Part shown: positions 4,372 to 59,324 of the stretch, piece by piece
Layout of the letters: the number at the start of each line of letters is the position of its first letter
Numbering within the stretch: the stretch's first letter is position 1
Assembly: GCA_017307375.1 (NCBI GenBank)
Contig: JAFKFH010000016.1
Location: 62,001-126,000 of the forward strand
Source of the DNA: Alphaproteobacteria bacterium
GTDB taxonomy: Bacteria > Pseudomonadota > Alphaproteobacteria > Ferrovibrionales > Ferrovibrionaceae
Reading direction: 5' to 3'
Length of the DNA stretch: 64,000 bases
The notes under the pieces: model-generated
What the model was told of the DNA's origin: nothing
The model's input: only the letters and a program-made list of their open reading frames with translations
Databases searched by the model: none
Translations under genes and position numbers: made by a program

Positions 4372-5326
4372 GGGCCGCACCGTTCGGGAAATGGCAGGCG
4401 ACCGCGCGCGGACCTTCCTGGCGCAGTGGCGGCACCTCGGCCGCGCAAAGGCCTTGCGCCTCGCGGCAGCGCGGATGGAAGCGGCAGCCGGCCGGATAGT
4501 TGAACACGCCGGGCACGCTGCCCGGAATGCCGCGCAGCGTACCCGGCGCCTGGCCCTCGCGCGGGATACAGGCGATGAGGTCGCGGGTATAGGGATGGCG
4601 CGGCTGGCCGAAGATCGGCCCGACCCGGTCGGCTTCGACCAGCCGCCCGGCATAAAGCACCGCGACGCGGTCGGCGGCCTGGGCGACCACGCCCATGTCG
4701 TGGGTGATCAGCATCAGGGCAAGGCCGCGCGCGCGCGCCGCCTCGACCATGATCTGGATGATCTGCGCCTGGATGGTGACGTCGAGCGCGGTGGTCGGCT
4801 CGTCGGCGACGATCAGTTCGGGATCGGCGGCCAGCGCCATGGCGATGACGATCCGCTGCTTCATGCCGCCGGAAAGCTGGTGCGGATACTGGCCGTGCAC
4901 GGCACTTGCCTCGGGGATGCGCAACTGCTCCATCAGTTCGATCGAGCGGGCGCGGGCACGCGGGGCATCGAAGCCGAGATGCAGGATCGACACCTGGTCG
5001 ATCTGGCGGCCGACCGGGATGATCGGGTCGAGCGAGGTCATCGGGTTCTGGGTGATCAGCGCCATGCGCCGCCCGCGCAGCGCGCGCCAATCGCGATCGC
5101 GCAGCGACCGCAGGTCCTGCCCGGCAAACGACAGTTCGGTCGCGCTGGCCTTGCCCCCGATCAAGGGCAACAGGCCCATCACGGCCATCGCAGTCAGCGA
5201 TTTGCCCGAGCCGGATTCGCCGACCACGGCGAGGATCTCGCCCCGGTCGATGGTGAAGGACAGCCGGTCCAGCGGCTGGACCGGGCCGATGGTGACCGAC
5301 AGGTCGCGGACGGCGAGCAGCGGCAC
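4364..5326 (-). CDS. Oligopeptide/dipeptide ABC transporter ATP-binding protein (DppD/OppD type)
   Basis: Second ATPase of the importer, 320 residues. Walker A is GESGSGKS, followed by TQNPMTSLDPI, the signature LSGGMKQRIVIAMAL and Walker B LIVADEPTTALD; the oligopeptide C-terminal region (HPYTRDLIACIP, GCRFHPRC) closes it. GTG 5326 is chosen as start: it lies just after the permease stop (TGACCGTG arrangement) with a gggagg ribosome site a few bases before. A TTG two codons earlier is an alternative. The gene sits between a DppC-type permease and the DppF-type ATPase. Confidence 0.95.
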   Translation of the reverse strand: MPLLAVRDLSVTIGPVQPLDRLSFTIDRGEILAVVGESGSGKSLTAMAVMGLLPLIGGKASATELSFAGQDLRSLRDRDWRALRGRRMALITQNPMTSLDPIIPVGRQIDQVSILHLGFDAPRARARSIELMEQLRIPEASAVHGQYPHQLSGGMKQRIVIAMALAADPELIVADEPTTALDVTIQAQIIQIMVEAARARGLALMLITHDMGVVAQAADRVAVLYAGRLVEADRVGPIFGQPRHPYTRDLIACIPREGQAPGTLRGIPGSVPGVFNYPAGCRFHPRCREAQGLCAAEVPPLRQEGPRAVACHFPNGAAHG

Positions 5327-5328
5327 GG

Positions 5329-6177
5329 TCAACCCTCCCTCAGCCGGCCGCGGATGTCGAGCGCATCGATCAGCGCGTCGCCGAACTGGTTGATGGCGAT
5401 GACGGTGGCGGCGATGGCGAGGCCCGGGAAGATGATGATCCAGGGTGCGATGAAGATCTGCGCGGTGCCCGACGACATCATCGCCCCCCAGGACGGCGTC
5501 GGCGGCTGGGCGCCCAGCCCGAAGAAGCCGAGCGTCGCTTCCAGGATGATGGCATCGCCGGTCGCCAGCATCCCGGCGACGACGACCGGGGTCAGGGCAT
5601 TGGGCAGGATCCGGCGGAACAGGACATATAAGTGGCCGGCACCGAGCGAGATCGTCGCCTCGACATAGGTTTCCGTCTTCAGTGCCATGACCTGGGCACG
5701 GGTCAGCCGGGTGAATTGGGCGAGATAGCCGATGGCGATGGCGATCGCCGTCGAGTTCAGCCCCGGCCCGATGATGGCGACGAAGATCAGCGCGATCAGG
5801 ATTTCCGGAAACGACCAGGTCAGGTCGACGACGGCGGTGACCGCGCGGTCGAAGGCGCCGCCGAAATAGCCGGCGGCAGCTCCGAGGGTCATGCCGCAGA
5901 TCACCGAGGCCGCGATCGAGGTGACGCCGACGGCAAGCGAGGTGCGTGCCCCCCAGATGATGCGCGACAGCAGGTCGCGCCCGAATTCGTCGGTGCCGAG
6001 CCAGTGCAGCGCCGACGGCTCGCGATTGGCCTGGCTCAGGTTCTGCAGGTCGTAGGCATAGGGCGCGATCCACGGGCTGAGCAGCGCGCAGGCTACCGTC
6101 ACCGCGAGGAACCCGGCCGCGATGCCGCCGCGCGGCGTCAGCAGGGTCCGGGCGAGGACCGAACGGTTCGCGGCCAT
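5329..6177 (-). CDS. Oligopeptide-type ABC transporter permease (DppC/OppC type)
   Basis: Inner-membrane permease of 282 residues. An N-terminal membrane segment is followed by the DppC-typical HWLGTDEFGRDLLSR, then five more hydrophobic segments and a permease EAA-type loop (EATISLGAGHLYVLFRRILP). Start ATG 6177 shares its A with the stop of the preceding permease gene (TGATG), so the two subunits are translationally coupled and made in equal amount. It ends 2 bp before the GTG of the next ATPase gene. Confidence 0.95.
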   Translation of the reverse strand: MAANRSVLARTLLTPRGGIAAGFLAVTVACALLSPWIAPYAYDLQNLSQANREPSALHWLGTDEFGRDLLSRIIWGARTSLAVGVTSIAASVICGMTLGAAAGYFGGAFDRAVTAVVDLTWSFPEILIALIFVAIIGPGLNSTAIAIAIGYLAQFTRLTRAQVMALKTETYVEATISLGAGHLYVLFRRILPNALTPVVVAGMLATGDAIILEATLGFFGLGAQPPTPSWGAMMSSGTAQIFIAPWIIIFPGLAIAATVIAINQFGDALIDALDIRGRLREG

Positions 6178-11750: not shown

Positions 11751-11767
11751 CCCGGCAAATCCTGCCG
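11751..11767 (+). promoter_or_regulatory. Upstream activating site shared with flgI (17-bp identical sequence)
   Basis: The sequence cccggcaaatcctgccg occurs here and again, identical, at 18680-18696 upstream of flgI. It is an imperfect dyad (cggca-aatcc-tgccg). It ends 53 bp before the -24 element of the flgF sigma-54 promoter, a normal enhancer distance. Likely the binding site of a FlbD-type sigma-54 activator; the protein assignment is inference from the neighbouring fliX gene. Confidence 0.7.
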
Positions 11768-11820
11768 CTACGCCTTTGGTGTCCATCAGCTAAGTCATTG
11801 ATTCTATTCGCTACGGCGAC

Positions 11821-11836
11821 TGGCACGCCAGTTGCA
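11821..11836 (+). promoter_or_regulatory. Sigma-54 promoter of the flgF operon
   Basis: TGGCACGCCAGTTGCA matches the sigma-54 consensus TGGCACG-N4-TTGCA completely. The invariant GG (11822-11823) and GC (11834-11835) are exactly 10 bp apart. Transcription would start near 11847, about 47 nt before the flgF ATG. An enhancer-like dyad lies 53 bp upstream. Confidence 0.9.
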
Positions 11837-11893
11837 AATACCGGATCGGCCGCGATGGACATGCGGCCTCGTAGCGGAGAGGACCGGTCAGCG

Positions 11894-12649
11894 ATGGAAA
11901 ATGTTGCCTATATCGGGTTGTCCCGCCTGACCACGATGCGGCGTCAGCTCGACGTGGTGGCCAACAACATTGCCAACATGAATGCCCCCGCCTTCAAGGC
12001 GGAGAAGATGATGTTCCAGGAGTATGTGATGCGCTCGTCCGAGCGCATCGGCATGAAGCAGGACAACATCTCGTTCGTGCGCGACTACGGCACCGCCCGC
12101 AACATGGCCGAGGGCGAGTTCGAGGTCACCGGCAACTCGCTCGACGTCGCCATTGCCGGCCAGGGCTTCCTCGCCGTCGATACCCCGGTCGGGCCGCGCT
12201 ACACCCGCAACGGCCGGCTGCGGCTCGACTCGCAGGGCCAGCTGACCGATGCCAACGGCTATCCGCTGCTCGACGACCAGGGCCGCCGGGTGCAGATCAA
12301 CGGCAATCGCGGCGAGATCACCATCGCGCATGACGGCACGATCTCGATGGTCAACCAGAACGTCACCCAGAATCTCGGCCGCCTGTCGCTCGTCACCTTC
12401 GCCAATCCCCAGCAGCTGACCATGACCGGCCGGGGCCTCTATGCCGCACCCGAGGGCCAGGCACCGGTTCCGGCGGTGGACGTGACGCTGCGCCAGGGGG
12501 TGATCGAGGGCTCGAACGTCCAGCCGGTGGTCGAGCTGACCTCGATGGTCGAACTCAGCCGGGCCTACGACGCCGCCGAGCAGATGCTGCAATCCGACAC
12601 CGACCGCCAGCGCAAGGCGATCGACCGCCTCGCCCGCATTACCGCCTGA
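11894..12649 (+). CDS. flgF: Flagellar basal-body rod protein FlgF
   Basis: Proximal-rod protein of the flagellar basal body, exported by the flagellar type III apparatus. The 251-residue product has the axial-protein N-terminus (VVANNIANMNAPAFK, residues 22-36) and the C-terminal coiled segment (ELSRAYDAAEQML) that assembles into the rod. The start MENVAYIGLSRL is typical of alphaproteobacterial FlgF; an upstream in-frame codon at 11798 would run through the sigma-54 promoter and is rejected. First gene of flgF-flgG-flgA-flgH, 19 bp before flgG. Confidence 0.95.
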   Translation: MENVAYIGLSRLTTMRRQLDVVANNIANMNAPAFKAEKMMFQEYVMRSSERIGMKQDNISFVRDYGTARNMAEGEFEVTGNSLDVAIAGQGFLAVDTPVGPRYTRNGRLRLDSQGQLTDANGYPLLDDQGRRVQINGNRGEITIAHDGTISMVNQNVTQNLGRLSLVTFANPQQLTMTGRGLYAAPEGQAPVPAVDVTLRQGVIEGSNVQPVVELTSMVELSRAYDAAEQMLQSDTDRQRKAIDRLARITA

Positions 12650-12668
12650 AGCCTGAGGAGAAACCGAC

Positions 12669-13457
12669 ATGCGCTCGCTTCAGATCGCCGCCACCGGCAT
12701 GCAGGCCCAGCAGACCAACGTCGAGGTCATTTCCAACAATATCGCCAACATGGCGACGACCGGCCACAAGCGGCAGCGCGTCGAGTTCCAGGATCTGCTC
12801 TACCAGAACCAGCGCCGCGTCGGCGCCTCGACCGCCGATGCGAACACCGTGGTGCCGGCCGGCATCCAGCTCGGCGTCGGTGTCCGTGTCGGCGCGGTCT
12901 ACCGCATCCTCGAGCAGGGGACGCTGACCATGACCAACAATCCCTACGACCTGGCGATTTCGGGCCGCGGCTACTTCCAGGTGCAGATCCCGGGCCAGGA
13001 CCAGCTGTTCTACACCCGGGCCGGCGCCTTCACCCTGAACCCGCAGGGCCAGATGGTCACCCAGGACGGCTATCCGGTGCAGCCGGTGATCACCATCCCG
13101 CAGAACGCCACCGAGGTGTCGATCTCGCAGACCGGCCTGGTCCAGGTGACGATCCCCGGTCAGATCCAGCCCCAGCAGGTCGGCCAGCTGACGATCGGCA
13201 CCTTCATCAATGCCGGCGGCCTCGAATCGGTCGGCGACAACCTGTTCCTGGAAACCCCGGCCTCGGGCCAGGTCACGCTCGGCAATCCCGGCGCCATCGG
13301 CTACGGCATCCTGCGCCAGGGCTATCTCGAGACGTCGAACGTCAATCCGGTCACCGAGATCACCAACCTGATCACCGCCCAGCGCGCCTACGAGATGAAC
13401 TCGAAGGTGATCACCACCTCGGACCAGATGCTGCAGACCACCAACCAGCTGCGCTGA
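12669..13457 (+). CDS. flgG: Flagellar basal-body rod protein FlgG
   Basis: Distal-rod protein, 262 residues, the usual length. The start MRSLQIAATGM and the motif VISNNIANMATTGHKRQR near residue 20 are characteristic, as is the C-terminal AQRAYEMNSKVITTSDQML segment. A strong gaggag ribosome site lies 8 bp before the ATG. Second gene of the sigma-54-driven operon; the product polymerises on the FlgF segment inside the periplasm. Confidence 0.97.
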   Translation: MRSLQIAATGMQAQQTNVEVISNNIANMATTGHKRQRVEFQDLLYQNQRRVGASTADANTVVPAGIQLGVGVRVGAVYRILEQGTLTMTNNPYDLAISGRGYFQVQIPGQDQLFYTRAGAFTLNPQGQMVTQDGYPVQPVITIPQNATEVSISQTGLVQVTIPGQIQPQQVGQLTIGTFINAGGLESVGDNLFLETPASGQVTLGNPGAIGYGILRQGYLETSNVNPVTEITNLITAQRAYEMNSKVITTSDQMLQTTNQLR

Positions 13458-13481
13458 TCCATGTTGCAGGAAGACCGCGTC

Positions 13482-14525
13482 ATGCGCATTGCCATGTTCC
13501 TTCTCGCCGCCAGCCTGCTGCTCTCCGGGCTTGTCGCGATCCTGGCCGCCTCGATCGCCCTGTCGGGCACGGCCCATGCCGCGACGGCGGCCGCGCGCGA
13601 CATGCGCGAGGTCCGCCTCAAATCGAATCCGACGGTGGCAGCGGCGACCGTGACGCTCGGCGACCTGTTCGACAATGCCGGCCCGGCCGAGCGCGTGATC
13701 GTCGCCGACTCGCCGGCACCCGGCGAGCGCATGTTCCTGCGCGCCGGCTACCTCGCCTCGATCGCCCGCGAGAACGGCCTGAACTGGTCGGGCGACCAGT
13801 CGGTGCGCGGCGTCACCGTGACGCGCGGCGGCCGCATGGTGCCGCAGGCCGACCTGCTGGGCGAGATCGGCCGCGTCGCCAAGGAACGTCTGGGCGGGGC
13901 GCGCTACGAGGTTTCGCTCGACAACCGGGCCCAGCAGCTCTTCGTGCCCGACGACGTTCTCCCCTCGCTGCGCGTCGACGATTTCGACATCGATCGCCGC
14001 ACCGGCCGGTTCACCGCGGTCGTCGTCTATCCGGCGGATCCGGCCGTGGCGGGCGAGAAGGTGCGGCTGACCGGCCGGGCCGCCGAAATCGCCGAGATCC
14101 CGGTCCTGCGCGGCCCGGTGGCCATGGGCACGGTCATCGGCTGGAACGACATCGACTACATGGAAATCCGGCCCGAGCAGCTCAGCCGCTACAACATCGT
14201 CAATCCGCAGGAGATCGTCGGCCTGGCGGCGGCCCGCTCACTGACCGCCGGCCAGCCGCTGCGCCTCGGCGACGTGAAGAAGCCCGAGATGGTCGCCCGC
14301 AACGGCATCGTCACGCTCACCTTCCGCCGCCCCGGCATCACGTTGAGCCTGCAGGGCCGCGCGACCGAACCCGGCGCGATGGGCGAGACCGTGCGGGTCA
14401 TGAACCTGTCTTCCAACAAGATCGTCCAGGCCATCGTCATCGGCCCGGGCGAGGTCGAGGTCCTGGCCGCCACCGGCACGCCGGTCGCGCAGGGTCTGGC
14501 CGCCCGTACCGCCGCCGTGAACTGA
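13482..14525 (+). CDS. flgA: Flagellar P-ring assembly chaperone FlgA
   Basis: Periplasmic chaperone for assembly of the FlgI P ring. The product has 347 residues from ATG 13482, chosen because an aggaag site sits about 10 bp before it; ATG 13461, seven codons earlier, overlaps that site. A long signal sequence (MRIAMFLLAASLLLSGLVAIL, then AHAAT) leads to SAF/ChapFlgA domains: EIPVLRGPVAMGTVIGWNDI near residue 212, then GLAAARSLTAGQPL and a C-terminal beta domain ending NLSSNKIVQAIV. It is longer than the E. coli protein, as usual in alphaproteobacteria. It follows flgG by 24 bp. Confidence 0.93.
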   Translation: MRIAMFLLAASLLLSGLVAILAASIALSGTAHAATAAARDMREVRLKSNPTVAAATVTLGDLFDNAGPAERVIVADSPAPGERMFLRAGYLASIARENGLNWSGDQSVRGVTVTRGGRMVPQADLLGEIGRVAKERLGGARYEVSLDNRAQQLFVPDDVLPSLRVDDFDIDRRTGRFTAVVVYPADPAVAGEKVRLTGRAAEIAEIPVLRGPVAMGTVIGWNDIDYMEIRPEQLSRYNIVNPQEIVGLAAARSLTAGQPLRLGDVKKPEMVARNGIVTLTFRRPGITLSLQGRATEPGAMGETVRVMNLSSNKIVQAIVIGPGEVEVLAATGTPVAQGLAARTAAVN

Positions 14526-14538
14526 GGAGATCGCCCCG

Positions 14539-15318
14539 ATGACCGCGTCGCGCCTTCTACGCGTCGGCCTTGCCGTGGCGCTCTGCGCCCTGCTGCCGGC
14601 CTGCAACATCACCCAGCGCCTGGCCGACATGGGCGAGGCGCCGAAGCTGACGCCGATCGAGAATCCGCAGGCGCAGAAGGGCTACCAGCCCGTCGCCCTG
14701 CCGATGCCCTCGCCGGAACCGTCGACCAAACTGGCCAATTCGCTGTGGCGGCCGGGCGCGCGCGCCTTCTTCAAGGACCAGCGGGCCGCGCGCGTGGGCG
14801 ACATCGTCACCGTGGTCGTCAACATCGCCGACAAGGCTACGGCGAACAATGCGTCGAACCGGACCCGCGCGACGACCGAGACGGCCGGCCTGACCAACCT
14901 GCTCGGTACCGAAGTCAATTCGGCCACCGGGACCTCGAGCGGTTCGGCGATCGAAAACATCTTCCGCGGTGCCACTCCGGGCTCGCTGGTCAACGGCACC
15001 TCGACCTCGTCCTATGCCGGCGCCGGCAAGATCCAGCGCGACGAGACCGTGACCAGCCAGATCGCAGCGATCGTCACCCAGGTGCTGCCCAACGGCAATC
15101 TCGTTGTCCAGGGCCGTCAGGAAGTCCGCGTCAACTATGAAGTCCGCGAATTGCTGATTTCCGGCGTCGTCAGGCCCGAAGACATCACGGCGACCAACAC
15201 GGTCGAACACACCAAGATCGCCGAGGCGCGCATCTCCTATGGCGGGCGCGGCCAGCTCATGGATGTCCAGCAGCCGCGCTATGGCACCCAGCTCTTCGAC
15301 ATCATCTTCCCTTTCTGA
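14539..15318 (+). CDS. flgH: Flagellar L-ring lipoprotein FlgH
   Basis: Outer-membrane lipoprotein forming the L ring. The 259-residue product has a lipobox LLPAC (Cys at residue 22), the FlgH segment SLWRPGARAFFKDQRAARVGD, and a conserved C-terminus (QQPRYGTQLFDIIFPF). A gaggag site lies 9 bp upstream of the ATG. Last gene of the operon; a rho-independent terminator follows. Confidence 0.97.
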   Translation: MTASRLLRVGLAVALCALLPACNITQRLADMGEAPKLTPIENPQAQKGYQPVALPMPSPEPSTKLANSLWRPGARAFFKDQRAARVGDIVTVVVNIADKATANNASNRTRATTETAGLTNLLGTEVNSATGTSSGSAIENIFRGATPGSLVNGTSTSSYAGAGKIQRDETVTSQIAAIVTQVLPNGNLVVQGRQEVRVNYEVRELLISGVVRPEDITATNTVEHTKIAEARISYGGRGQLMDVQQPRYGTQLFDIIFPF

Positions 15319-15338
15319 TATTCGCGTCGATCCACTTC

Positions 15339-15376
15339 GGCGGGAGGCGGGCGACCGCTTCCCGCCTTTTTCTTTG
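15339..15376 (+). terminator. Rho-independent terminator after flgH
   Basis: A GC-rich stem (ggcgggaggcg against cgcttcccgcc, one mispair) with a short loop is followed directly by tttttcttt. It begins 20 bp after the flgH stop and separates the flgFGAH operon from the GGDEF-EAL gene. Confidence 0.85.
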
Positions 15377-15438
15377 CCGTCGGCTTTGCTTGAGATCGGC
15401 CTGTCTATTCTGTAAGACACCAATTAGTAGTCGAGACG

Positions 15439-15468
15439 AACCGTTACAATTATGCGTAACGGTTGTAA
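15439..15468. promoter_or_regulatory. Nested inverted repeats upstream of the GGDEF-EAL gene
   Basis: Perfect 9-bp arms aaccgttac (15439-15447) and gtaacggtt (15456-15464) flank 8 bp, and a second pair ttacaa/ttgtaa (15444-15449, 15463-15468) overlaps them. The site lies about 85 bp before the GGDEF-EAL start in an AT-richer stretch. It reads as a protein-binding operator rather than a terminator because no T-run follows. The binding protein is unknown. Confidence 0.5.
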
Positions 15469-15552
15469 GGGTCCAAATAACGAGAAATACCAAGGACTCG
15501 CGCTACAATGCCGATTGCATGACGCTCGTCCAGCGAGCATCATCTTTTTCGC

Positions 15553-17511
15553 ATGCGAATCCTGCCGCATTTCTCGGCCCCTCTCCCGCGTGAGTTGGAG
15601 GTCCGCTACCGCGCCAGGCGCCTGCGCGAAACCTTGCCCTTGCTGGCTGGCCTTTCGATCCTGGCGCTGATCGCGCTGCTGCTGTCGATCACCTGGGATC
15701 TGATTACCGCGACCGATTTCCTGCTGCGCTCCCTGCCGTTTCGCCTGGTCGGCCTGTCCTGGGCCGGCCTGTGCCTGATCGGCTGCACGCTGTGGCGTGA
15801 TCCGCGGCTGGTGCCGGCGGCAGCGATCGCCACCGCGGTCGTCGGCGGCATCACGCTCGCCGGCATCGGCGGCGCTGCCGCGCCCGAGCAGTCCTACGGC
15901 ATGATTGCGCCCGGGGTCGCCCTGTTCATCGTCGCCTCGGCGATGATCGCGCCGACCCTCGGCCTGATCCTGCGTTGCGGCGTCCTCGTCACCTGCATCT
16001 ACGCGATCGGCGGCGTCCTCGCCGACGAGCCGCTGGCGACCCTGGTCCAGCAGGAACTGTTCGTCGCCACCGCCGTGGTCGTCGCCCTGTTCGTCGCCGG
16101 CACCAACGATTATTTCCGCCGGACCCACTACGCCATCGCCGCCGCCAGGGCCCAGACCGAGGCGGCGCGTGCCGCCGAGGATCGCGAACGGGCGCGTTAC
16201 CTCGTCCGCCACGATCCGCTGACCGAACTGCTGAACCGCGACGCGCTGGTCGCCGATCTCGACGGCGAGATCGGCGCCAGGCCCGACCACGCCTTCGACC
16301 TTGTCGTCGTCAATCTCGATCGCTTCGGCGCGTTGTCCGGCCGGCACGGCCCGGCCATGGCAGACGACCTTCTGATCGCGCTGGCCCGCCGCATGCGTCA
16401 GCGGTTGCCCGGGGCGGAATTCGCCGCCCGCATCGGCGGCGACGAATTCGCCTTGGTCGAACGCCCGTCTGAAAGCGCCGGATCGGGCGGCTTCGTCGCG
16501 GCGGTGCGCAGCCTGCTCGCCGATCCGTTTGCTCTGGCGGGCAAGACGGTCGCGGTTACCGCGACCTTTGGTGTCGCCCGCTATCCGGCCGACGGCCGCG
16601 ACGGCGCGGCGCTGGTTGCCCAGGCCCGGATCGCACTGGACGAGGCGCGCCGGGGCCATCGCGCGGTCGGCTTCTTCTCGGCCCGGCTCGACAACGTCGC
16701 CCGCCGTCGTGCCCGTACGGTCGAGGCGCTGAATCGCGCGGTCGAGCAGGGTGGGTTCGAACTCCACTACCAGCCCCAGCACAGGCTGCGCGACGGGGCG
16801 CTGGTCGGGGCCGAGGCGCTGTTGCGCTGGCGCGATGTCGACGGTGTCATGATCCCGCCGGCCGAATTCATCCCCCTGGCCGAAGAGGCCGGGCTGATCC
16901 AGTCGATCGGCCAGTGGGTGATCGAGGAGGCCTGTGCCCAGGCCCGGCGCTGGGCGGCCGAGGGCCTGCCGCCGCTGCGGCTGGCCGTCAACGTTTCGCC
17001 GCTGCAGTTGCGTCAGCCCGATTTTCCCGAGCGTGTGGCGCTGGCGCTGGCCGAAAGCGGCGTCGCGCCGGAATGGCTGTCGATGGAGATCACCGAAAGC
17101 GCGGCGATGTCCGACATCGAGGGATCGGTCGAACTGCTGGCGCGGGTCAAGGCGACCGGCGTCACCGTCGCGCTGGACGATTTCGGTACGGGCCATGCCT
17201 CGCTCGCCTGGCTCAACCGGCTGCCGGTCGACTACCTCAAGATCGATCGCAGCTTCGTTTCCGAATTGCCCTGGAATGCCAATGCGCTGACCATCAGCCG
17301 GGGGTTGATCGGCATGGCGCGGGGCCTGGGGCTCGGGATCATCGCCGAGGGGATCGAGACCTCCGGGCAGGAGGCGCTGCTGCGTGCCGCCGGCTGCGAC
17401 ATGGGCCAGGGCTACCACTACTCGCGGCCACTGCCGGCGGATCATTTCGCCGCCTACGTCATCCGCCATCTGGCCGAACGTGCGCCGCCCCGCGTCGTCG
17501 CCATGGAATGA
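15553..17511 (+). CDS. Membrane-anchored GGDEF-EAL cyclic-di-GMP protein
   Basis: A 652-residue protein with five to six hydrophobic segments in residues 28-183, a short linker helix, a GGDEF domain (about 205-380) and an EAL domain (about 385-640). GGDEF is intact (residues 295-299, metal Asp256), but the RxxD inhibitory site is absent (RLPG at the expected place). All phosphodiesterase residues read intact: E421 of EAL, N480, E512, DD 542-543, K563 and E599. It could therefore both make and degrade c-di-GMP, or use the GGDEF domain as a GTP-sensing switch. It lies between flgH and dksA, inside the flagellar block, which suggests a role in the motility/attachment switch. No strong ribosome site is seen before ATG 15553. 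Confidence 0.93.
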   Translation: MRILPHFSAPLPRELEVRYRARRLRETLPLLAGLSILALIALLLSITWDLITATDFLLRSLPFRLVGLSWAGLCLIGCTLWRDPRLVPAAAIATAVVGGITLAGIGGAAAPEQSYGMIAPGVALFIVASAMIAPTLGLILRCGVLVTCIYAIGGVLADEPLATLVQQELFVATAVVVALFVAGTNDYFRRTHYAIAAARAQTEAARAAEDRERARYLVRHDPLTELLNRDALVADLDGEIGARPDHAFDLVVVNLDRFGALSGRHGPAMADDLLIALARRMRQRLPGAEFAARIGGDEFALVERPSESAGSGGFVAAVRSLLADPFALAGKTVAVTATFGVARYPADGRDGAALVAQARIALDEARRGHRAVGFFSARLDNVARRRARTVEALNRAVEQGGFELHYQPQHRLRDGALVGAEALLRWRDVDGVMIPPAEFIPLAEEAGLIQSIGQWVIEEACAQARRWAAEGLPPLRLAVNVSPLQLRQPDFPERVALALAESGVAPEWLSMEITESAAMSDIEGSVELLARVKATGVTVALDDFGTGHASLAWLNRLPVDYLKIDRSFVSELPWNANALTISRGLIGMARGLGLGIIAEGIETSGQEALLRAAGCDMGQGYHYSRPLPADHFAAYVIRHLAERAPPRVVAME

Positions 17512-17512
17512 C

Positions 17513-17545
17513 GCCGAAAAACAAGGAGGCCGGCTTGCGCCGGCC
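17513..17545 (-). terminator. Terminator of dksA
   Basis: On the minus strand a perfect 7-bp stem (ggccggc-gcaa-gccggcc) is followed by tccttgttttt. It starts 27 bp after the dksA stop and ends just beyond the stop of the convergent GGDEF-EAL gene, so it may serve both. Confidence 0.8.
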
Positions 17546-17571
17546 CCGCGAGGTCAAGTCTGCAATCGCCG

Positions 17572-17988
17572 TCAGGCGTCGCGATACGCCTTCTCGCGCC
17601 GTTCGTGGCGTTCCTGGGCCTCGATCGACAAGGTGGCGATCGGCCGCGCCTCCAGCCGCTTGATCGAGATCGGTTCACCGGTCTCTTCGCAATAGCCGTA
17701 GGTGTTGTCGTCGATCCGCTTCATCGCGGCGTCGATCTTGGAAATCAGCTTGCGCTGGCGGTCGCGGGTGCGCAACTCCAGCGCCCGCTCGGATTCGGTG
17801 GAGGCGCGGTCGGCAATATCCGGCTCCTGAACCGTGTCTTCCTGGAGATGCTGCAGCGTCTGATTGGACTCCCGTAGAATTTCATCCCGCCATTCCAGCA
17901 GCTTGCGGCGGAAATACTCCTTCATACGGGGATTCATGAACGGCTCGTCTTCTGACGGCCGGTAGTTGGGTTTCAACTGTATTCCCAT
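17572..17988 (-). CDS. dksA: RNA polymerase-binding transcription factor DksA
   Basis: Binds the RNA polymerase secondary channel and, with ppGpp, adjusts promoter output. The 138-residue product has the coiled-coil tip signature D57-IA-D60-R-A62 and the helix ALELRTRDRQRKLI. The globular end reads YGYCEETGEPISIKRL: only one of the four zinc-ligand cysteines of E. coli DksA remains (Cys100), a pattern known in alphaproteobacterial DksA such as that of Rhodobacter sphaeroides. It lies in the flagellar block, as in other alphaproteobacteria, but has its own sigma-70 promoter. Confidence 0.96.
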   Translation of the reverse strand: MGIQLKPNYRPSEDEPFMNPRMKEYFRRKLLEWRDEILRESNQTLQHLQEDTVQEPDIADRASTESERALELRTRDRQRKLISKIDAAMKRIDDNTYGYCEETGEPISIKRLEARPIATLSIEAQERHERREKAYRDA

Positions 17989-18055
17989 CCGTTTACTCCA
18001 CCAACCCGAGGCAAGCGCCGTTGCCCCTGGACAGCCCCGATACCGGGCGGCGCGG

Positions 18056-18084
18056 AGTATATGAATCGGGACCTATCCCTGCAA
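18056..18084 (-). promoter_or_regulatory. Sigma-70 promoter of dksA
   Basis: Read on the minus strand: TTGCAG (18084-18079), a 17-bp spacer, then TATACT (18061-18056). This gives an untranslated leader of about 60 nt before the dksA ATG. It lies downstream of the fliX stop, so dksA can be transcribed independently of fliX. Confidence 0.75.
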
Positions 18085-18152
18085 GCGCGCGACGCGAGCA
18101 GGGACGACATGAATTGTGAAGATGTGAATGATTGCTGAAAACTTGCGCAGAA

Positions 18153-18581
18153 TCAGCCGGGTACCGCCGCAATTCCACGCTTTGCCAGCTCCACCGCGCA
18201 GCGCAACTCGATGTCGGCCAGCACTTCGGCAAGCCTTGGATCGTCGATTGCCTGGCGGTCGCGGGTCAGGGCGTCGGCCAGGGCCTGGAGGCGCGCGGCG
18301 GGCATGTTGCCGGTCAGCAGCGCATGGCGGATCTCGTCCAGCCGGTCGAGCAGGTCGGTGCCGCGCTGCACCGCACGGCGCCGCCGGCGCGACGTTGCGT
18401 CGCCCTCGTCCTGAACCGCAAGCAGTGCCGCCACCGACGTCATCGGGGCCGCCGCCGCCATTGGTGCCGACTCGGCGGGCGCGTCGTCGAGATGGGTCGA
18501 GAAACGGTCGCCGGCACCGCCCGCACGCGCACGCTGCGTGGGTCGATTGCCACGAACCTGGCCTGTGCCCTCGATCTTCAT
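18153..18581 (-). CDS. fliX: Flagellar assembly regulator FliX
   Basis: Small regulator of 142 residues, known from Caulobacter, where FliX links flagellar assembly state to the sigma-54 activator FlbD. Family features are the start MKIEG, a low-complexity Ala/Arg-rich N-terminal third, and the conserved C-terminal half with GTDLLDRLDEIRHALLTG and the ending LADIELRCAVELAKRG. The gene points away from flgI and towards dksA. Its place between two operons with sigma-54 promoters and a shared upstream element fits a FlbD/FliX circuit; flbD itself is not in the window. Confidence 0.9.
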   Translation of the reverse strand: MKIEGTGQVRGNRPTQRARAGGAGDRFSTHLDDAPAESAPMAAAAPMTSVAALLAVQDEGDATSRRRRRAVQRGTDLLDRLDEIRHALLTGNMPAARLQALADALTRDRQAIDDPRLAEVLADIELRCAVELAKRGIAAVPG

Positions 18582-18679
18582 CGTCCGACTGACCCTGTCC
18601 TCGCATCTCCGGCAGGAGGGTTTGAGCTTTACGCTAGTCCGCCCGACTTAACAACCGATTAGCCCCGCGGCGAAAACGC

Positions 18680-18698
18680 CCCGGCAAATCCTGCCGGG
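18680..18698 (+). promoter_or_regulatory. Upstream activating site of flgI, identical to the flgF site
   Basis: cccggcaaatcctgccggg is a perfect dyad (cccggca-aatcc-tgccggg); its first 17 bases are identical to 11751-11767 upstream of flgF. It ends 86 bp (counting the shared 17 bases) before the flgI -24 element, 33 bp further than at flgF, about three helical turns. This keeps the site on nearly the same DNA face relative to both promoters. Confidence 0.7.
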
Positions 18699-18782
18699 TG
18701 CCGGTCGGGAATGCCGGGCTTCGCTTTGTTTCGACCGAATAGGAATTCAATAATTTCAATGCCTTGTAGCCTCAAGGCTGGC

Positions 18783-18798
18783 TGGCACGGGGGCTGCA
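18783..18798 (+). promoter_or_regulatory. Sigma-54 promoter of the flgI operon
   Basis: TGGCACGGGGGCTGCA agrees with the sigma-54 consensus except C for T at the first base of the -12 block. GG (18784-18785) and GC (18796-18797) are 10 bp apart. Transcription from about 18809 would give a leader of about 110 nt that includes the poly-G run. Confidence 0.85.
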
Positions 18799-18881
18799 TT
18801 AGGGAAGGCGGCGCCGCTTTCGCCACTGACCGTAACCGCAGCTTTACCATGCAGATGGCAGGCTTGGTTTCGGCGGATGTC

Positions 18882-18891
18882 GGGGGGGGGG
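18882..18891 (+). repeat. Homopolymer of ten G in the flgI leader
   Basis: Ten consecutive G bases lie 31 bp before the chosen flgI start, between its sigma-54 promoter and the ribosome site. Such runs are prone to slippage and to sequencing error. Because the run is outside the chosen coding region, a length change would not shift the FlgI frame but could alter leader folding. Confidence 0.85.
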
Positions 18892-18921
18892 CGCCAGGCG
18901 ACCAGAAGGAAGGTTTTGCCG

Positions 18922-20154
18922 ATGCCATCGGTGTTCAACGACCGTCAGATCATGTCCCGCCTCGTCCTGGCCATCGCCGCCACGGGCCTTGCCCTGCTGG
19001 TCATGGCCCAGGCAGCGCTAGCGCAGTCGCGGATCAAGGATATCGCCGACTTCGAGGGCGTGCGCGAGAACATGCTGATCGGTTACGGCCTGATCGTCGG
19101 TCTCGACGGCACCGGCGATTCGCTGAACAACGCCCCGTTCACCAAGCAGAGCCTGGAAGCCATGCTGGAACGGCTGGGCGTCAATGTCCGCGCCGCCGGC
19201 AACTACAATACGAAGAACATCGCCGCGGTCATGGTGACCGCGACCCTGCCGCCGTTTGCCCGGCACGGCCAGCGGATCGACGTCACCGTCGGTACCATGG
19301 GCGACGCCAAGAGCGTGGTCGGCGGCCAGTTGCTGGTCACCCCCCTCTACGGTGCCGACGGCGAGGTCTATGCCGTGGCGCAGGGCGCGATCGCCGCCGG
19401 CGGTTTCAAGTTCCAGGGCCAGGCCGCGCTGGTCCAGCGCGGCGTCGTCACCGCCGGCCGCATCTCGAATGGCGCGATCGTCGAACGCGAGGTCGGCTTC
19501 GATCTGGCCTCGATGCCCCTGCTGCGCCTGGCGCTGCGCAACCCCGACCTGACCACCGCCCGCCGGATGGCGCAGGCGATCTCGACCTTTCTCGGCCAGC
19601 CGGCGTCGCGCGCGCTCGACCCCTCGACCGTCCAGGTCGACATCCCCGACGGCATGAAGAGCGACGTCATCGGCCTGATGACGCAGATCGAACAGCTGGT
19701 CGTGCAGACCGACCAGACCGCCCGGGTGGTCATCGACGAGAAGACCGGCGTGATCGTCATGGGCGCCAATGTCCGGGTCGATACCGTGGCGATTGCCCAG
19801 GGCAACCTGACGGTCCGCATCACCGAGACGCCGCAGGTCTCGCAGCCGGCGCCTTTCTCCTCGGGCACCGGCCGAACCCCCCGGTTGAACGCCGACGGCA
19901 CGGTGGCACGCGATGCCCAGGGCAACATCATCTTCGACGGTGCCGGGGGGGCGCAGACGGTGGTGGTGCCGCGCACCGACATCCAGGTCGACGACCAGGC
20001 CGACCGGCGCCTGTCGGTACTGCGCGGCGGCGTGTCGCTGCAGGAACTGGTCGACGGGCTCAACGCGCTGGGCGTCGGCCCGCGCGACATGATCTCGATC
20101 CTGCAGGCGATCAAGGCGGCCGGTGCGCTGCGCGCCGACCTGCAGATGATGTGA
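18922..20154 (+). CDS. flgI: Flagellar P-ring protein FlgI
   Basis: Periplasmic P-ring subunit around the rod, 410 residues from ATG 18922. That start is favoured by an aaggaagg site 9 bp before it; ATG 18952 would give a shorter signal peptide. The signal sequence (LAIAATGLALLVMAQAALAQS) precedes SRIKDIADFEGVRENMLIGY and GLIVGLDGTGDSLNNAPFT, both diagnostic. The C-terminus LNALGVGPRDMISILQAIKAAGAL is also typical. First gene of flgI - rod-binding - FlgN-like - flgK - flgL. Confidence 0.96.
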   Translation: MPSVFNDRQIMSRLVLAIAATGLALLVMAQAALAQSRIKDIADFEGVRENMLIGYGLIVGLDGTGDSLNNAPFTKQSLEAMLERLGVNVRAAGNYNTKNIAAVMVTATLPPFARHGQRIDVTVGTMGDAKSVVGGQLLVTPLYGADGEVYAVAQGAIAAGGFKFQGQAALVQRGVVTAGRISNGAIVEREVGFDLASMPLLRLALRNPDLTTARRMAQAISTFLGQPASRALDPSTVQVDIPDGMKSDVIGLMTQIEQLVVQTDQTARVVIDEKTGVIVMGANVRVDTVAIAQGNLTVRITETPQVSQPAPFSSGTGRTPRLNADGTVARDAQGNIIFDGAGGAQTVVVPRTDIQVDDQADRRLSVLRGGVSLQELVDGLNALGVGPRDMISILQAIKAAGALRADLQMM

Positions 20155-20168
20155 CGGAGGGCCAGACG

Positions 20169-20489
20169 GTGAGCACGACGATGAACGCCCCCGATCCGAT
20201 GCTGGCCCGGCCTTTCGCCGGCCTGGCAACCGGGCCGAAGGCCAAGGCCAGCGAGGCTCAGTTGCGCGCTACCGCCGAGAAATTCGAGGCGAGCTTCCTG
20301 TCCGAGATGATCCGGCACATGTCCGAGGGGGTGAAGTCCGATCCCCTGACCGGTGGCGGCCATGGCGAAGACAACTTCAAGTCGTTCCTGAACGAACAGT
20401 ATTCCAAGGCGATCGTCGCCCGCGGCGGCATCGGCGTCGCCGACATGGTATATAAGCAGATGCTGCGGATGCAGGAGGGTGCCCAATGA
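20169..20489 (+). CDS. flgJ: Rod-binding protein (FlgJ N-terminal domain type)
   Basis: A 106-residue protein equal to the rod-binding half of FlgJ without the muramidase domain, as is common in alphaproteobacteria. Key segments are ATAEKFEASFLSEMIRHM and GIGVADMVYKQML. GTG 20169 is chosen for its ggagg site 8 bp upstream; an ATG four codons later is possible. It lies 14 bp after flgI and overlaps the next gene by ATGA. A separate peptidoglycan hydrolase must open the wall for the rod; none is evident in the window. Confidence 0.88.
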   Translation: MSTTMNAPDPMLARPFAGLATGPKAKASEAQLRATAEKFEASFLSEMIRHMSEGVKSDPLTGGGHGEDNFKSFLNEQYSKAIVARGGIGVADMVYKQMLRMQEGAQ

Positions 20490-21040
20490 TCGACCCCCGG
20501 ATGAACGCCACGATGAACCAGCTGATCCAGAGCCAGCAGGCCGAAGACCTGCCGGTCGAGCCAGCGGTAGCACCGGCTGCCGACTTCGCCGGCGAGCCCG
20601 ATCCGGAGCTCGGGGCGCTCAACGAGTTGGCCGAGGTTGCGCTCGACCTGATCGATGCGCTCGATGCCGAGACCGCCATTCTGCAGACACTGAAGCTCGA
20701 CGAGGCGGAACCCAGGATGACGCGCAAGCGGCAGCTGGCCGATCTCTATGCGCTGAAATCGGACGCGCTGAAGAACCGCCTGAACGAACGCCGGATCGTC
20801 CTGTCGGACGATCTGCGAGAAGGCCTGGTCCATCTGAACGACCGCCTGCGCGAGGCGGCCCAGGAAAATGCCGTGGCGCTCAAGGCCGCGATGGATGGAA
20901 CCAGGGTGGTGATCGAGGTGATCAGCCAGGCCGTCAAGAAGCAGCAATCGATGACGTCCTACGGGCGCAGCGGGCGCGCGACCGAGACCCTGACGGGCGG
21001 CACCCCCGGTCTTGCCATGTTCTCGGATCGCCGGTTGTAG
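20486..21040 (+). CDS. Putative FlgN-like flagellar export chaperone
   Basis: A 184-residue, largely helical protein without signal peptide. Residues 40-160 form heptad-rich helices (ALDAETAILQTLKLDEAEPR, LREGLVHLNDRLREAAQEN, VIEVISQAVKKQQ) in the style of FlgN, the chaperone that holds FlgK and FlgL before export. It ends in a short Gly/Ser-rich tail. It overlaps the rod-binding gene (ATGA) and ends 13 bp before flgK, exactly where a FlgK/FlgL chaperone would be expected. Sequence similarity is modest, so the assignment leans on context. Confidence 0.65.
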   Translation: MIDPRMNATMNQLIQSQQAEDLPVEPAVAPAADFAGEPDPELGALNELAEVALDLIDALDAETAILQTLKLDEAEPRMTRKRQLADLYALKSDALKNRLNERRIVLSDDLREGLVHLNDRLREAAQENAVALKAAMDGTRVVIEVISQAVKKQQSMTSYGRSGRATETLTGGTPGLAMFSDRRL

Positions 21041-21053
21041 GCGGGAGGCTGCC

Positions 21054-22592
21054 ATGGTCAGCGTCATTCTCGATGCCGCACTGTCGGGTCTGAAGACCAG
21101 CCAGCGCCAGCTCGACATCACCTCCCACAACATCGCCAACGTCAACACGCCGGGCTACCACAAGCGATCGCTGACCCAGTTTTCGCAGTCGGTCGGCGGT
21201 ATCGGCCAGGGTGCCGTGACCGGCAGCGTGATCCGCTCGGCCAATGCTGCCTTGGAGAGCCAGCAGCTGCAGACGACCACGGTGGTCGGCAAGTACGAGG
21301 TCCAGGACCAGTATCGCGCCTCGGTCGAGCAGCTCTACGGCAAGCCGGGTTCGGGGAATTCGCTGTCGGACGCGATGCTCGCCTTCAAGAAGGACCTCGA
21401 TGGTTTTACCGTCGCGGTCGACAGCATCCCGCCGTCGACCGTGATCGCCGGTGCCCAGGTGCTGACCGGCCAGCTCAACACCATGTCGCAGCAGATCCAG
21501 GCGCTTCGACTGCAGGCCGACCAGGCGGTCGCCGACGGCCTGCAGGAAGCCAACACCTATATCGACCAGCTCGGGGATCTGAACAACAAGATCTCGACCG
21601 GCCAGGCCGTCGGGCTCGACACCGGCGACTTGCAGGACCAGCGCCAGGAAATCGTCCGGCAGCTGGGATCGCTGATGGGTGTCCAGACCTATATGCGACC
21701 CGACGGCAACATGGTCGTGTCGACGACGACCGGCCGGGTGATGGTCGACGGCACGAAGCTGCAAAAATTCGGTCAGCTCGGCGTCGCCCCCGGCAATACG
21801 CTTGCAACCTACGTCCCGGTCACGGCGATGACGGCGGTGACGCCGACACAACGCATCGGCCTGGGTACGATGGGCAATCCCGGCTTGCCGGACCTGACCG
21901 ACGAGCTGATTTCAGGCGGCGGCAAGATCGGTGCGCTGCTCGGCCAGCGCGGCCAGTATTCGGCGACCGCCAGTCTGCCCCAAGGCGAATTGCAGCAGCG
22001 AACGGCCGAACTGAATCAGTTTGCCCTGCAGCTCTACAACACCGTCCAGGCGACGAACTTGAACACGACCGACGTTGCCGCCAATCCCACCTATGATCCG
22101 ACCAATGCGGTCAACCAGGCGAACCATTTCTTCGCCGGCGTCTATCCCAATCCACCGGCCAATCCGGGCAATATCGACAATGCCGGGACGATCTCGGTCC
22201 ATCCCGATATCGTCGCCAATGCGTCGCTGCTGAACACGACGACCGGCGCGATCGATATCTCGATTGCTCGCAACCTCGATACCGCGCTGAACACGACGAA
22301 CATTTCCTTCGCCGCCGCCGGTTCCCTCGGGGCGATCCAGACCACCTTTCTCGGCTATTCGTCGACGATCCTGAACAATGTCGCGGATTTGCGCCTGACG
22401 TCGAAGACCGCGGCCCAGTACAACAACAGTCTGTTGAGCAATATCAACACGCGGCTCGGCGACGTGACCGGCGTCAATCTTGACGAGGAACTGTCGAATC
22501 TGATCGTCTACCAGAAGTCCTATCAGGCTTCCGCCAAGTCGATCCAGACGGCGAATCAGATGCTCGATACCGTCTTGAGTCTGAAGCAGTAA
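21054..22592 (+). CDS. flgK: Hook-filament junction protein FlgK, copy 1
   Basis: First junction protein between hook and filament (HAP1), 512 residues. The axial N-terminal motif SHNIANVNTPGYHK is at about residues 25-38 and the C-terminal coiled segment YQASAKSIQTANQMLDTV ends the protein. ATG 21054 has a gggaggc site. It resembles copy 2 (56553-58094) along its whole length, including NHFF-GVYPNPPA and TGVNLDEEL. Its operon includes flgI and a chaperone-like gene. Confidence 0.95.
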   Translation: MVSVILDAALSGLKTSQRQLDITSHNIANVNTPGYHKRSLTQFSQSVGGIGQGAVTGSVIRSANAALESQQLQTTTVVGKYEVQDQYRASVEQLYGKPGSGNSLSDAMLAFKKDLDGFTVAVDSIPPSTVIAGAQVLTGQLNTMSQQIQALRLQADQAVADGLQEANTYIDQLGDLNNKISTGQAVGLDTGDLQDQRQEIVRQLGSLMGVQTYMRPDGNMVVSTTTGRVMVDGTKLQKFGQLGVAPGNTLATYVPVTAMTAVTPTQRIGLGTMGNPGLPDLTDELISGGGKIGALLGQRGQYSATASLPQGELQQRTAELNQFALQLYNTVQATNLNTTDVAANPTYDPTNAVNQANHFFAGVYPNPPANPGNIDNAGTISVHPDIVANASLLNTTTGAIDISIARNLDTALNTTNISFAAAGSLGAIQTTFLGYSSTILNNVADLRLTSKTAAQYNNSLLSNINTRLGDVTGVNLDEELSNLIVYQKSYQASAKSIQTANQMLDTVLSLKQ

Positions 22593-56414: not shown

Positions 56415-56552
56415 CGGCGGTTTCTCCGCCTTAAGAGTCGTCTCGCCGATTTTTTCGATTCCTGCGCGCAGGGATTCTCGCGGACACCCGTTTACCCCGG
56501 TGGGGACGCTCGGAACCGGCTTCACGGTTACCAGCGCAAAGAGGTGTTCGCC

Positions 56553-58094
56553 ATGGTCACGGCGATATTGCAGAACGGTCTGTCGGCGCTGACCGCCGCG
56601 CAGAAGGCAATGAACACGACGGCGAACAACATCGCCAACGTGAACACGCCAGGCTATCACAAGCAGACCACCACACTGGTCAGCCAGGTGGCTGGCGGCG
56701 TGGGGGCAGGCGTCGGGGTCAGCGGCGTTTCGCGTGCGGTCGACCGGGCGTTGCAGGCCCAGCAGCTGAAGACGACGACGGCGCTCGGCGCGGCGACGAT
56801 CAACAAGTCCTACACCGCCAGCCTGTCGCAACTGTTCGGCAAGCCGTCCAGCGGTTCGACCATCGGCACCGCGATCAGCGATCTCCAGTCCAAGATGGCA
56901 TCGTTTGCGGCGGCGACCGACAGCGTGCCGGCCTCGACCGTGATCGCCTCGGCGCAGAATCTCGCCACGCAGCTCAACACCCTTTCCCAGGGCATCCAGG
57001 ACCAGCGGCTGCAGGCCGACAAGGATGTCGCCAGCGATCTCGACCAGGCCAATACCCTGATGAGCCAGATCGCCGACTACAACAAGGATATCGGCTCGGG
57101 CCAGGCCACCGGACTGAACGTCTCCGACCTGCAGGACAAGCGCGACGAAGCGTTGCGGCAATTGTCGGTGCTGGTCGGTACGTCGAGCTATGTGCGCTCG
57201 GACGGGCAGATGGTCGTGATGACGACGGATGGCCAGACCCTGGTCGATGGCGGCAACGCCAACCAGTTCGGCATGATCGGCCCTGCGCCCGCCAATACGC
57301 TGATGAAATACACAGAGGTCACGACGATGACGGCGACGACGCCGACGAATCGTATCGGCCTCGGCACCATCGGCAGCCCGTCGAAAACCGGTGACCTGAC
57401 CAACCAGCTCATCGCCAACGGCGGTTCGGTCGGTGCCGAGTTGAACCAGCGCGGCCAATATTCGTCGACGGCCAGCCTGCCCCAGGGCGAATTGCAGAAG
57501 GCGACGGCCGAACTGAACCAGCTGGCGCTCGCCCTGTACAACACCGTTCAGGCGACCAATCTCGCGACCACCAACACTGCGGGATCGAGCGTCTACGACC
57601 CGACCAATGCGGTCGATGAATCGAACCACTTCTTTTCGGGTGTCTATCCCAATCCGCCGGCCACGCCCGGCAGCATCGACAATGCGGCCACGATCCAGAT
57701 TCACCCCGATCTCCTTGCCGACGCCTCGCTGCTCAATACCACCAGCGGCGCGACCGACATCTCGATCTCCAAGAACCTCTCGACGGCGCTGAGTTCGACG
57801 TCGATTTCGTTCGGTGCCGCCGGCAACCTCCCGGCGCAGACCGGCAGCCTGTCGGGCTATGCCTCGGCCATCCTGAACGACGTGGCGACCAGGGCCGATA
57901 CCGCCAACGAGGCCGAGAGTTACCAGTCCTCGCTGCTTTCCACGATCGAGACGCGGCTGGGCGAAACCACCGGCGTCAACCTGGACGAGGAACTGGCCGC
58001 GCTGATCCAGCAGCAGAAAGCCTATCAGGCCGCCTCGAAGGTGATCCAGACGGCGGACGAGATGCTCGACACGCTGATCAACCTGAAACGCTGA
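56553..58094 (+). CDS. flgK: Hook-filament junction protein FlgK, copy 2
   Basis: A second FlgK of 513 residues, similar to copy 1 from end to end (NNIANVNTPGYHK, NHFFSGVYPNPPATPG, TGVNLDEELAALI, KAYQAASKVIQTADEML). ATG 56553 has a gaggtg site; an upstream ATG at 56544 is possible. It heads flgK-flgL-flgE-unknown. No sigma-54 promoter or shared upstream element was found in the 138 bp before it, unlike the first flagellar operons. Confidence 0.94.
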   Translation: MVTAILQNGLSALTAAQKAMNTTANNIANVNTPGYHKQTTTLVSQVAGGVGAGVGVSGVSRAVDRALQAQQLKTTTALGAATINKSYTASLSQLFGKPSSGSTIGTAISDLQSKMASFAAATDSVPASTVIASAQNLATQLNTLSQGIQDQRLQADKDVASDLDQANTLMSQIADYNKDIGSGQATGLNVSDLQDKRDEALRQLSVLVGTSSYVRSDGQMVVMTTDGQTLVDGGNANQFGMIGPAPANTLMKYTEVTTMTATTPTNRIGLGTIGSPSKTGDLTNQLIANGGSVGAELNQRGQYSSTASLPQGELQKATAELNQLALALYNTVQATNLATTNTAGSSVYDPTNAVDESNHFFSGVYPNPPATPGSIDNAATIQIHPDLLADASLLNTTSGATDISISKNLSTALSSTSISFGAAGNLPAQTGSLSGYASAILNDVATRADTANEAESYQSSLLSTIETRLGETTGVNLDEELAALIQQQKAYQAASKVIQTADEMLDTLINLKR

Positions 58095-58108
58095 GGAGGG
58101 CCCCGACG

Positions 58109-59308: not shown

Positions 59309-59324
59309 ACGAGGAGAGTTCGAG

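Follow-up and report, generated by a model that had tools for sequence, protein, structure and literature searches.

In a 64,000-nucleotide stretch of an alphaproteobacterial genome of the family Ferrovibrionaceae (hereafter the window; C33:62001-126000, from contig JAFKFH010000016.1 in an assembly of 7,539,962 bases and 41 contigs), the flagellar genes flgF and flgI are each preceded by the same 17-bp sequence, CCCGGCAAATCCTGCCG, followed by a sigma-54 (-24/-12) promoter. A 15-bp dyad within this 17-mer, CGGCA-N5-TGCCG, is very probably the binding site (ftr element) of the FlbD orthologue of this genome, a sigma-54 activator predicted to answer to FliX. Judged from its sequence context, the dyad would serve as the operator of an FlbD-type sigma-54 flagellar regulon, which FlbD is expected to bind and activate and in which several genes of unknown role may take part. 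This kind of control is known from Caulobacter (FlbD/ftr) and is met here in another lineage, with a wider set of sites than the first-pass annotation of the window had seen. What is new is the breadth of the site set, the helical phasing of the sites and an unknown family of proteins whose gene is preceded by dyad and sigma-54 element in most of the relatives counted.

The dyad in the window and across the genome

The first-pass annotation had placed one copy of the 17-mer 5' of a -24/-12 promoter before each of flgF and flgI, and both copies and promoters were found at these positions (Table 1). The distance from the end of the site to the T of the -24 box is 53 bp at flgF and 86 bp at flgI, which gives the difference of 33 bp that had been claimed. 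There is no other exact copy in the assembled genome, so both of the two exact copies stand at flagellar sigma-54 promoters and none lies away from them, an outcome in favour of the first-pass annotation under its own refuting condition. The identity over 17 bp is weak by itself and was rejected as statistical evidence, because the window contains 17 different pairs of exact repeats that are 17 bp or longer (50 repeated 17-mers, vs. 2 to 7 in eight first-order Markov simulations); it is position and conservation that have to carry the case. The copies are real, but the 17-mer did not stand as a unit, and the recognition unit appears to be the 15-bp dyad inside it, with CGGCA-RWWYY-TGCCG as the refined form.

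A search of the genome with CGGCARNNNYTGCCG revealed 35 places, while the reversed control pattern gave 29. The dyad is unspecific on its own, so its genome-wide count was rejected as evidence and the word is meaningful only together with a sigma-54 promoter. A sigma-54-like element was defined as GG-N10-GC that agrees with the consensus in at least 10 of 12 letters. After inspection of all 35 places, six dyads were found to face such an element within the 35-130 bp that follow them, at gaps of 52, 53, 53, 54, 86 and 86 bp. These six loci are flgF, flgI, fliK-flgD-flgE on contig C9 (families confirmed, fliK by PF02120) and three uncharacterised genes encoding proteins of 377, 101 and 191 aa. 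In this way, the two sites described earlier are both real but represent only two of six dyads with sigma-54 elements in the genome. In the proposed genome scan for the 17-mer with mismatches, a sigma-54 element accompanied 5 of the 14 places with up to two mismatches. With up to three mismatches the 17-mer gave 125 matches (reversed control, 41), and the loosened word is not specific alone.

Conservation, spacing and the fliF site

A locus was scored as conserved if a dyad with no more than one mismatch was followed, at a distance of 35-130 bp, by a sigma-54-like element, and 29 dyads with permuted arms served as controls. FlgI was present in 42 relatives, 29 of which had a locus for the count (13 of the 42 without one, and our own locus, were left out). 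Dyad and sigma-54 element occur together upstream of flgI in 15 of these 29 relatives (control mean 0.03 loci, largest 1), and the antisense strand of the flgI loci had no such combination. At flgF, the combination was detected in 18 of 21 named loci, with no control hit on the 20 loci tested; the 21 include one locus (L061) with the promoter present and the dyad absent.

The position of the dyad relative to the promoter is periodic. The 111 dyad-promoter pairs were reduced to 79 by de-duplication on spacer similarity, and pairs combining a promoter score below 11 with an imperfect dyad were dropped from the phasing set. The gaps cluster near 42, 51, 62, 74, 85, 94, 106 and 116 bp (by eye from the list), and the best period for the 79 promoters is 11.0 bp (R = 0.62). 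Because the gaps of related promoters are not independent, each distinct gap was also counted once (n = 36), which gave a period of 10.8 bp and a periodicity that none of 10,000 random draws reached; gaps that neighbour one another in runs may still favour this test. The periodicity was also significant for perfect dyads only (n = 21, P-value = 0.0007). In L043 and the Ferrovibrio locus L076, the gap is 85 bp at flgF and 52 bp at flgI, the reverse of the 53 and 86 bp in the window, and from this swap the spacing seems to shift by whole helical turns between lineages. Since the sites are merely about 40-120 bp from the promoter, the dyad would have to keep to one face of the helix. Such a fixed face, with whole turns gained or lost, would offer a natural experiment on short-range enhancer geometry. 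In addition, the three free positions of the dyad are A or T in 67-87% of the 79 sites, in a window of 67% GC.

The spacers were searched for words resembling WATCAANNNNTTR, which we take to be the consensus of integration host factor (IHF). Exact words were found in 7 of 79 spacers (0.14 expected from shuffles) and words with at most one mismatch in 25 of 79 (2.53 expected), 17 of the 25 being centred 22-25 bp before the -24 box. In our own genome, five of the six promoters have an IHF-like word with zero or one mismatch, the exception being that of the 101-aa gene.

A further dyad lies upstream of fliF, where AGGCAATTTTTGCCG is found in our genome 5 bp from the CtrA-like word TTAACCAACTGTTCA. 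With our own locus included, 20 of 30 loci have the dyad in the stretch of up to 720 bp that precedes fliF (control mean 0.48, at most 3), and in 16 of the 30 it forms a rigid composite, 4-5 bp before a CtrA-like TTAA-N7-TT(C/T)A. No sigma-54-like element was detected upstream of fliF in the strand and stretch scanned (0/30, three loci being short). As the fliF dyad stands beside a CtrA-like word and lacks a sigma-54 element, FlbD is probably a repressor there; the analogy with Caulobacter ftr4 suggests that it probably represses the early class, and the composite is what one would expect if an early promoter driven by CtrA were repressed or modulated.

FlbD, FliX and competing explanations

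The flbD gene, which the first-pass annotation had left to be located, is present at L080:5444-6814 on the minus strand, between fliN and flhA, in a cluster that also has fliF, fliG and an flhF-like gene. Its product (456 aa) contains GAFTGA and matches NF050807.1 (TransRegFlbDCaul) with 779.7 bits against a curated cut-off of 750. Its receiver-like domain scores 21.4 bits for Response_reg, short of the 30.2 bits set as cut-off. The fliX gene was found between the two operons, as had been claimed, by its match to PF10768. At the level of sequence, the earlier proposal that one FlbD-like activator recognises the dyad at both operons is therefore supported: FlbD and FliX are both present, dyad and sigma-54 element are conserved at flgF and flgI and present at fliK, and helical phasing, IHF-like words and the fliF site beside a CtrA-like word point the same way.

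According to excerpts of PMC3096577, FliX and not phosphorylation controls FlbD in this pathway, and sigma-54 and IHF are needed for class III/IV transcription; PMC6180460, on the contrary, attributes phosphorylation of FlbD to an unknown kinase. In excerpts of PMC3930126, the ftr sites are given as the places where FlbD acts, with fliF repressed by FlbD at ftr4. As far as these excerpts (PMC3096577, PMC3930126) describe Caulobacter crescentus, our genome resembles it in several respects. It has orthologues of FlbD and of FliX, and its rod, ring and hook operons have sigma-54 promoters with dyads upstream and IHF-like words in the spacers; at fliF, a site without sigma-54 element adjoins a CtrA-like word. 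Unlike C. crescentus, our genome belongs to another alphaproteobacterial family, includes three uncharacterised genes in the site set, and uses two spacings (52-54 and 86 bp), with those of flgF and flgI swapped relative to the Ferrovibrio locus. The arrangement of upstream dyad, IHF-like word, -24/-12 promoter and AAA+ activator with GAFTGA is also that of NifA/NtrC-type enhancers with IHF-assisted looping, but the receiver-like domain is weak here and the expected input is FliX rather than a kinase.

In the mechanism that we propose, completion of the MS ring and export gate would cause FliX to let FlbD oligomerise on the dyad, as reported for Caulobacter. IHF would bend the DNA lying between dyad and promoter, and FlbD, with the dyad kept to one helix face, would touch the sigma-54 polymerase at -24/-12 and open the putative flgFGAH, flgI and fliK-flgD-flgE operons. 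The FlbD/FliX checkpoint, known by experiment in Caulobacter, would thereby extend to a little-studied family, and the site definition (dyad, helical phase, IHF and sigma-54) is testable and could be used across the whole class.

Several observations weigh against this assignment. In the genome, 29 of the 35 dyads have no sigma-54 element, a number equal to the reversed control count, and the loosened dyad is common (408 matches at two mismatches vs. 121 for the control). Among the flgI relatives, 14 of 29 fail the conservation rule, and in 8 of these 14 a sigma-54-like element is present but no dyad can be recognised. Kinship inflates the counts, as 15 of the 18 flgF loci are named Azospirillum and a single genus (g4) contributes 9 of the 16 composites at fliF. 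The presumed resemblance of ftr to the dyad is a lead and not a test. Finally, nine strong Sigma54_activat genes exist besides FlbD. On contig C12, one of them (C12:330138-330623, 348 aa) has a gene for a rod-type domain at a distance of about 4 kb, which lowers our confidence very slightly.

The last point leads to the best of the competing explanations, that another sigma-54 activator binds the dyad and drives the promoters, which we regard as unlikely. Of the Sigma54_activat matches in the genome, ten are strong and two weak, and binding specificity is unreadable from sequence. However, when the surroundings of each of the ten strong activators were searched by tblastn with flagellar queries, a flagellar cluster was detected only at FlbD (the FliK query contained three stops and began at a wrong start, and its lack of matches here and in the other scans carries no weight), and fliF, flgF, flgI and fliK are the targets expected of FlbD. 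For the C12 activator, about 39 kb of surroundings contained no further match to the flagellar queries, and its region no dyad (at most one mismatch) facing a sigma-54 element. The locus itself (L084) comprises the activator gene at 4635-5681 on the minus strand, without a receiver match, and a 139-aa gene with the flagellar rod-type C-terminal domain PF06429 at 292-711 on the minus strand.

It is very improbable that the dyad is instead an RNA hairpin terminating the upstream gene. The flgI copy has perfect 7-bp arms, at the three uncharacterised genes the dyad directly follows the stop codon of the gene before, and a weak 5-pair stem follows the flgI dyad immediately at 18701-18717 (7 such matches in the region vs. 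3.7 expected). Yet neither dyad was listed in the terminator scan, no T run follows either of them, and a hairpin leaves the 11-bp period relative to the sigma-54 element unexplained. Furthermore, the genes flanking the flgI site diverge, so there is no upstream transcript to end there. A chance repeat in GC-rich DNA, to which the many repeat pairs of the window and the near-equal dyad and control counts might point, can practically be dismissed in view of the helical phasing and the conservation at orthologous promoters, where control dyads are close to zero.

Uncharacterised genes and other features of the window

The three uncharacterised genes behind dyad and sigma-54 element are conserved and may belong to the flagellum, and they should switch on with the rod, ring and hook genes. 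The members scanned of the three families matched Pfam and NCBIfam models only with scores far short of the curated cut-offs. The 377-aa family is present in 34 of 61 genomes, our own included. Own loci were excluded from the conservation counts, and 4 of 33 relatives without a locus were left out; dyad and sigma-54 element were found in 22 of the remaining 29 (control mean 0.07, largest 1), and a sigma-54-like element in 27 of 29. The family co-occurs with FliX (both in 32 genomes, family only in 2, FliX only in 10, neither in 17; P-value = 2.3e-6, Fisher test), an association inflated by small genomes without either. In the two FliX-less genomes with the family (L165 and L172), the gene has a sigma-54-like element and lacks the dyad.

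Seven plasmid records, all from Azospirillum, matched the 377-aa family. On the four plasmids viewed, the gene, annotated as hypothetical, overlaps the end of fliI in a flagellar cluster. Neither dyad nor sigma-54-like element was found at the gene in the two plasmid loci scanned (L313 and L314), so its control differs there. A flagellar role is opposed by eight regions of other relatives, in which the flagellar queries were unmatched near the gene; ribA adjoins it in five of these eight and also in our own genome. The words NPLQHIP and NPLQHLP were absent from the papers searched, a result of little weight because words of this kind are seldom printed. On balance, we lean slightly towards the view that the dyad defines an FlbD regulon across Alphaproteobacteria that includes the 377-aa family as an unrecognised flagellar assembly protein, with a possible role in the hook-basal body checkpoint or alongside the export ATPase.

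For the two smaller proteins, dyad and sigma-54 element were detected in 6 of 15 loci of the 101-aa family and in 4 of 10 loci of the 191-aa family, one match to the latter protein having been dropped for its two stops (L192). No flagellar match was found nearby in either of two regions for the 101-aa family, and the 191-aa family gene lies 6-7 kb from flgD in three of six regions viewed.

Table 1. Sites, promoters and genes discussed in the text (window coordinates unless a locus or contig is given).
Feature	Position	Strand	Details
Enhancer-like 17-mer, predicted FlbD site of flgF	11751-11767	+	Core dyad CGGCAAATCCTGCCG at 11753-11767
IHF-like word AATCAATGACTTA	11791-11803	-	Exact to WATCAANNNNTTR; centre 24 bp upstream of flgF -24 box
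Sigma-54 (-24/-12) promoter of flgF	11821-11836	+	TGGCACGCCAGTTGCA
flgF	11894-12649	+	Family models
flgG	12669-13457	+	Family models
flgA	13461-14525	+	Family models
flgH	14539-15318	+	Family models
fliX, predicted FlbD partner	18153-18581	-	PF10768, E 1.6e-39; divergent from flgI
Enhancer-like 17-mer, predicted FlbD site of flgI	18680-18696	+	Extended to CCCGGCAAATCCTGCCGGG at 18680-18698
IHF-like word TTTCAATGCCTTG	18754-18766	+	One mismatch; centre 23 bp upstream of flgI -24 box
Sigma-54 (-24/-12) promoter of flgI	18783-18798	+	TGGCACGGGGGCTGCA
flgI	18877-20154	+	Family models; start codon uncertain
FlgN-like protein behind flgI	20486-21040	+	Weak match, E 0.044, below cut-off; putative operon member
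flgK	21012-22592	+	Family model; putative operon member
Dyad upstream of fliF	L080:10704-10718 (C9)	-	CtrA-like word 5 bp on
Uncharacterised gene, 377 aa	L110:1619-2752	+	Behind dyad and sigma-54 element
Uncharacterised gene, 101 aa	L111:1083-1388	-	Behind dyad and sigma-54 element
Uncharacterised gene, 191 aa	L118:1624-2199	+	Behind dyad and sigma-54 element
377-aa family, own copy	C16:336759-337889		Signature INPLQHIPIVSTIYR-x2-TGD

A longer open reading frame that overlaps fliX (18073-18606) was rejected as the gene, being in the wrong frame and without a family match. The dksA gene (17572-17988) lies directly behind fliX, and both genes occur in all 28 fliX-bearing loci among 36 loci scanned. 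Additionally, a second set of flgK-, flgL- and flgE-like genes (516, 399 and 463 aa) was detected at 56544-60716; scanning the window revealed no combination of dyad and sigma-54 element for this set. Its flgL-like gene has exact stretches of 18 and 28 bp in common with the flgL-like gene at 22620. In most relatives of the same family and a few others, the match to FlgI falls into two parts near profile position 283, which suggests an insertion of about 50 residues.

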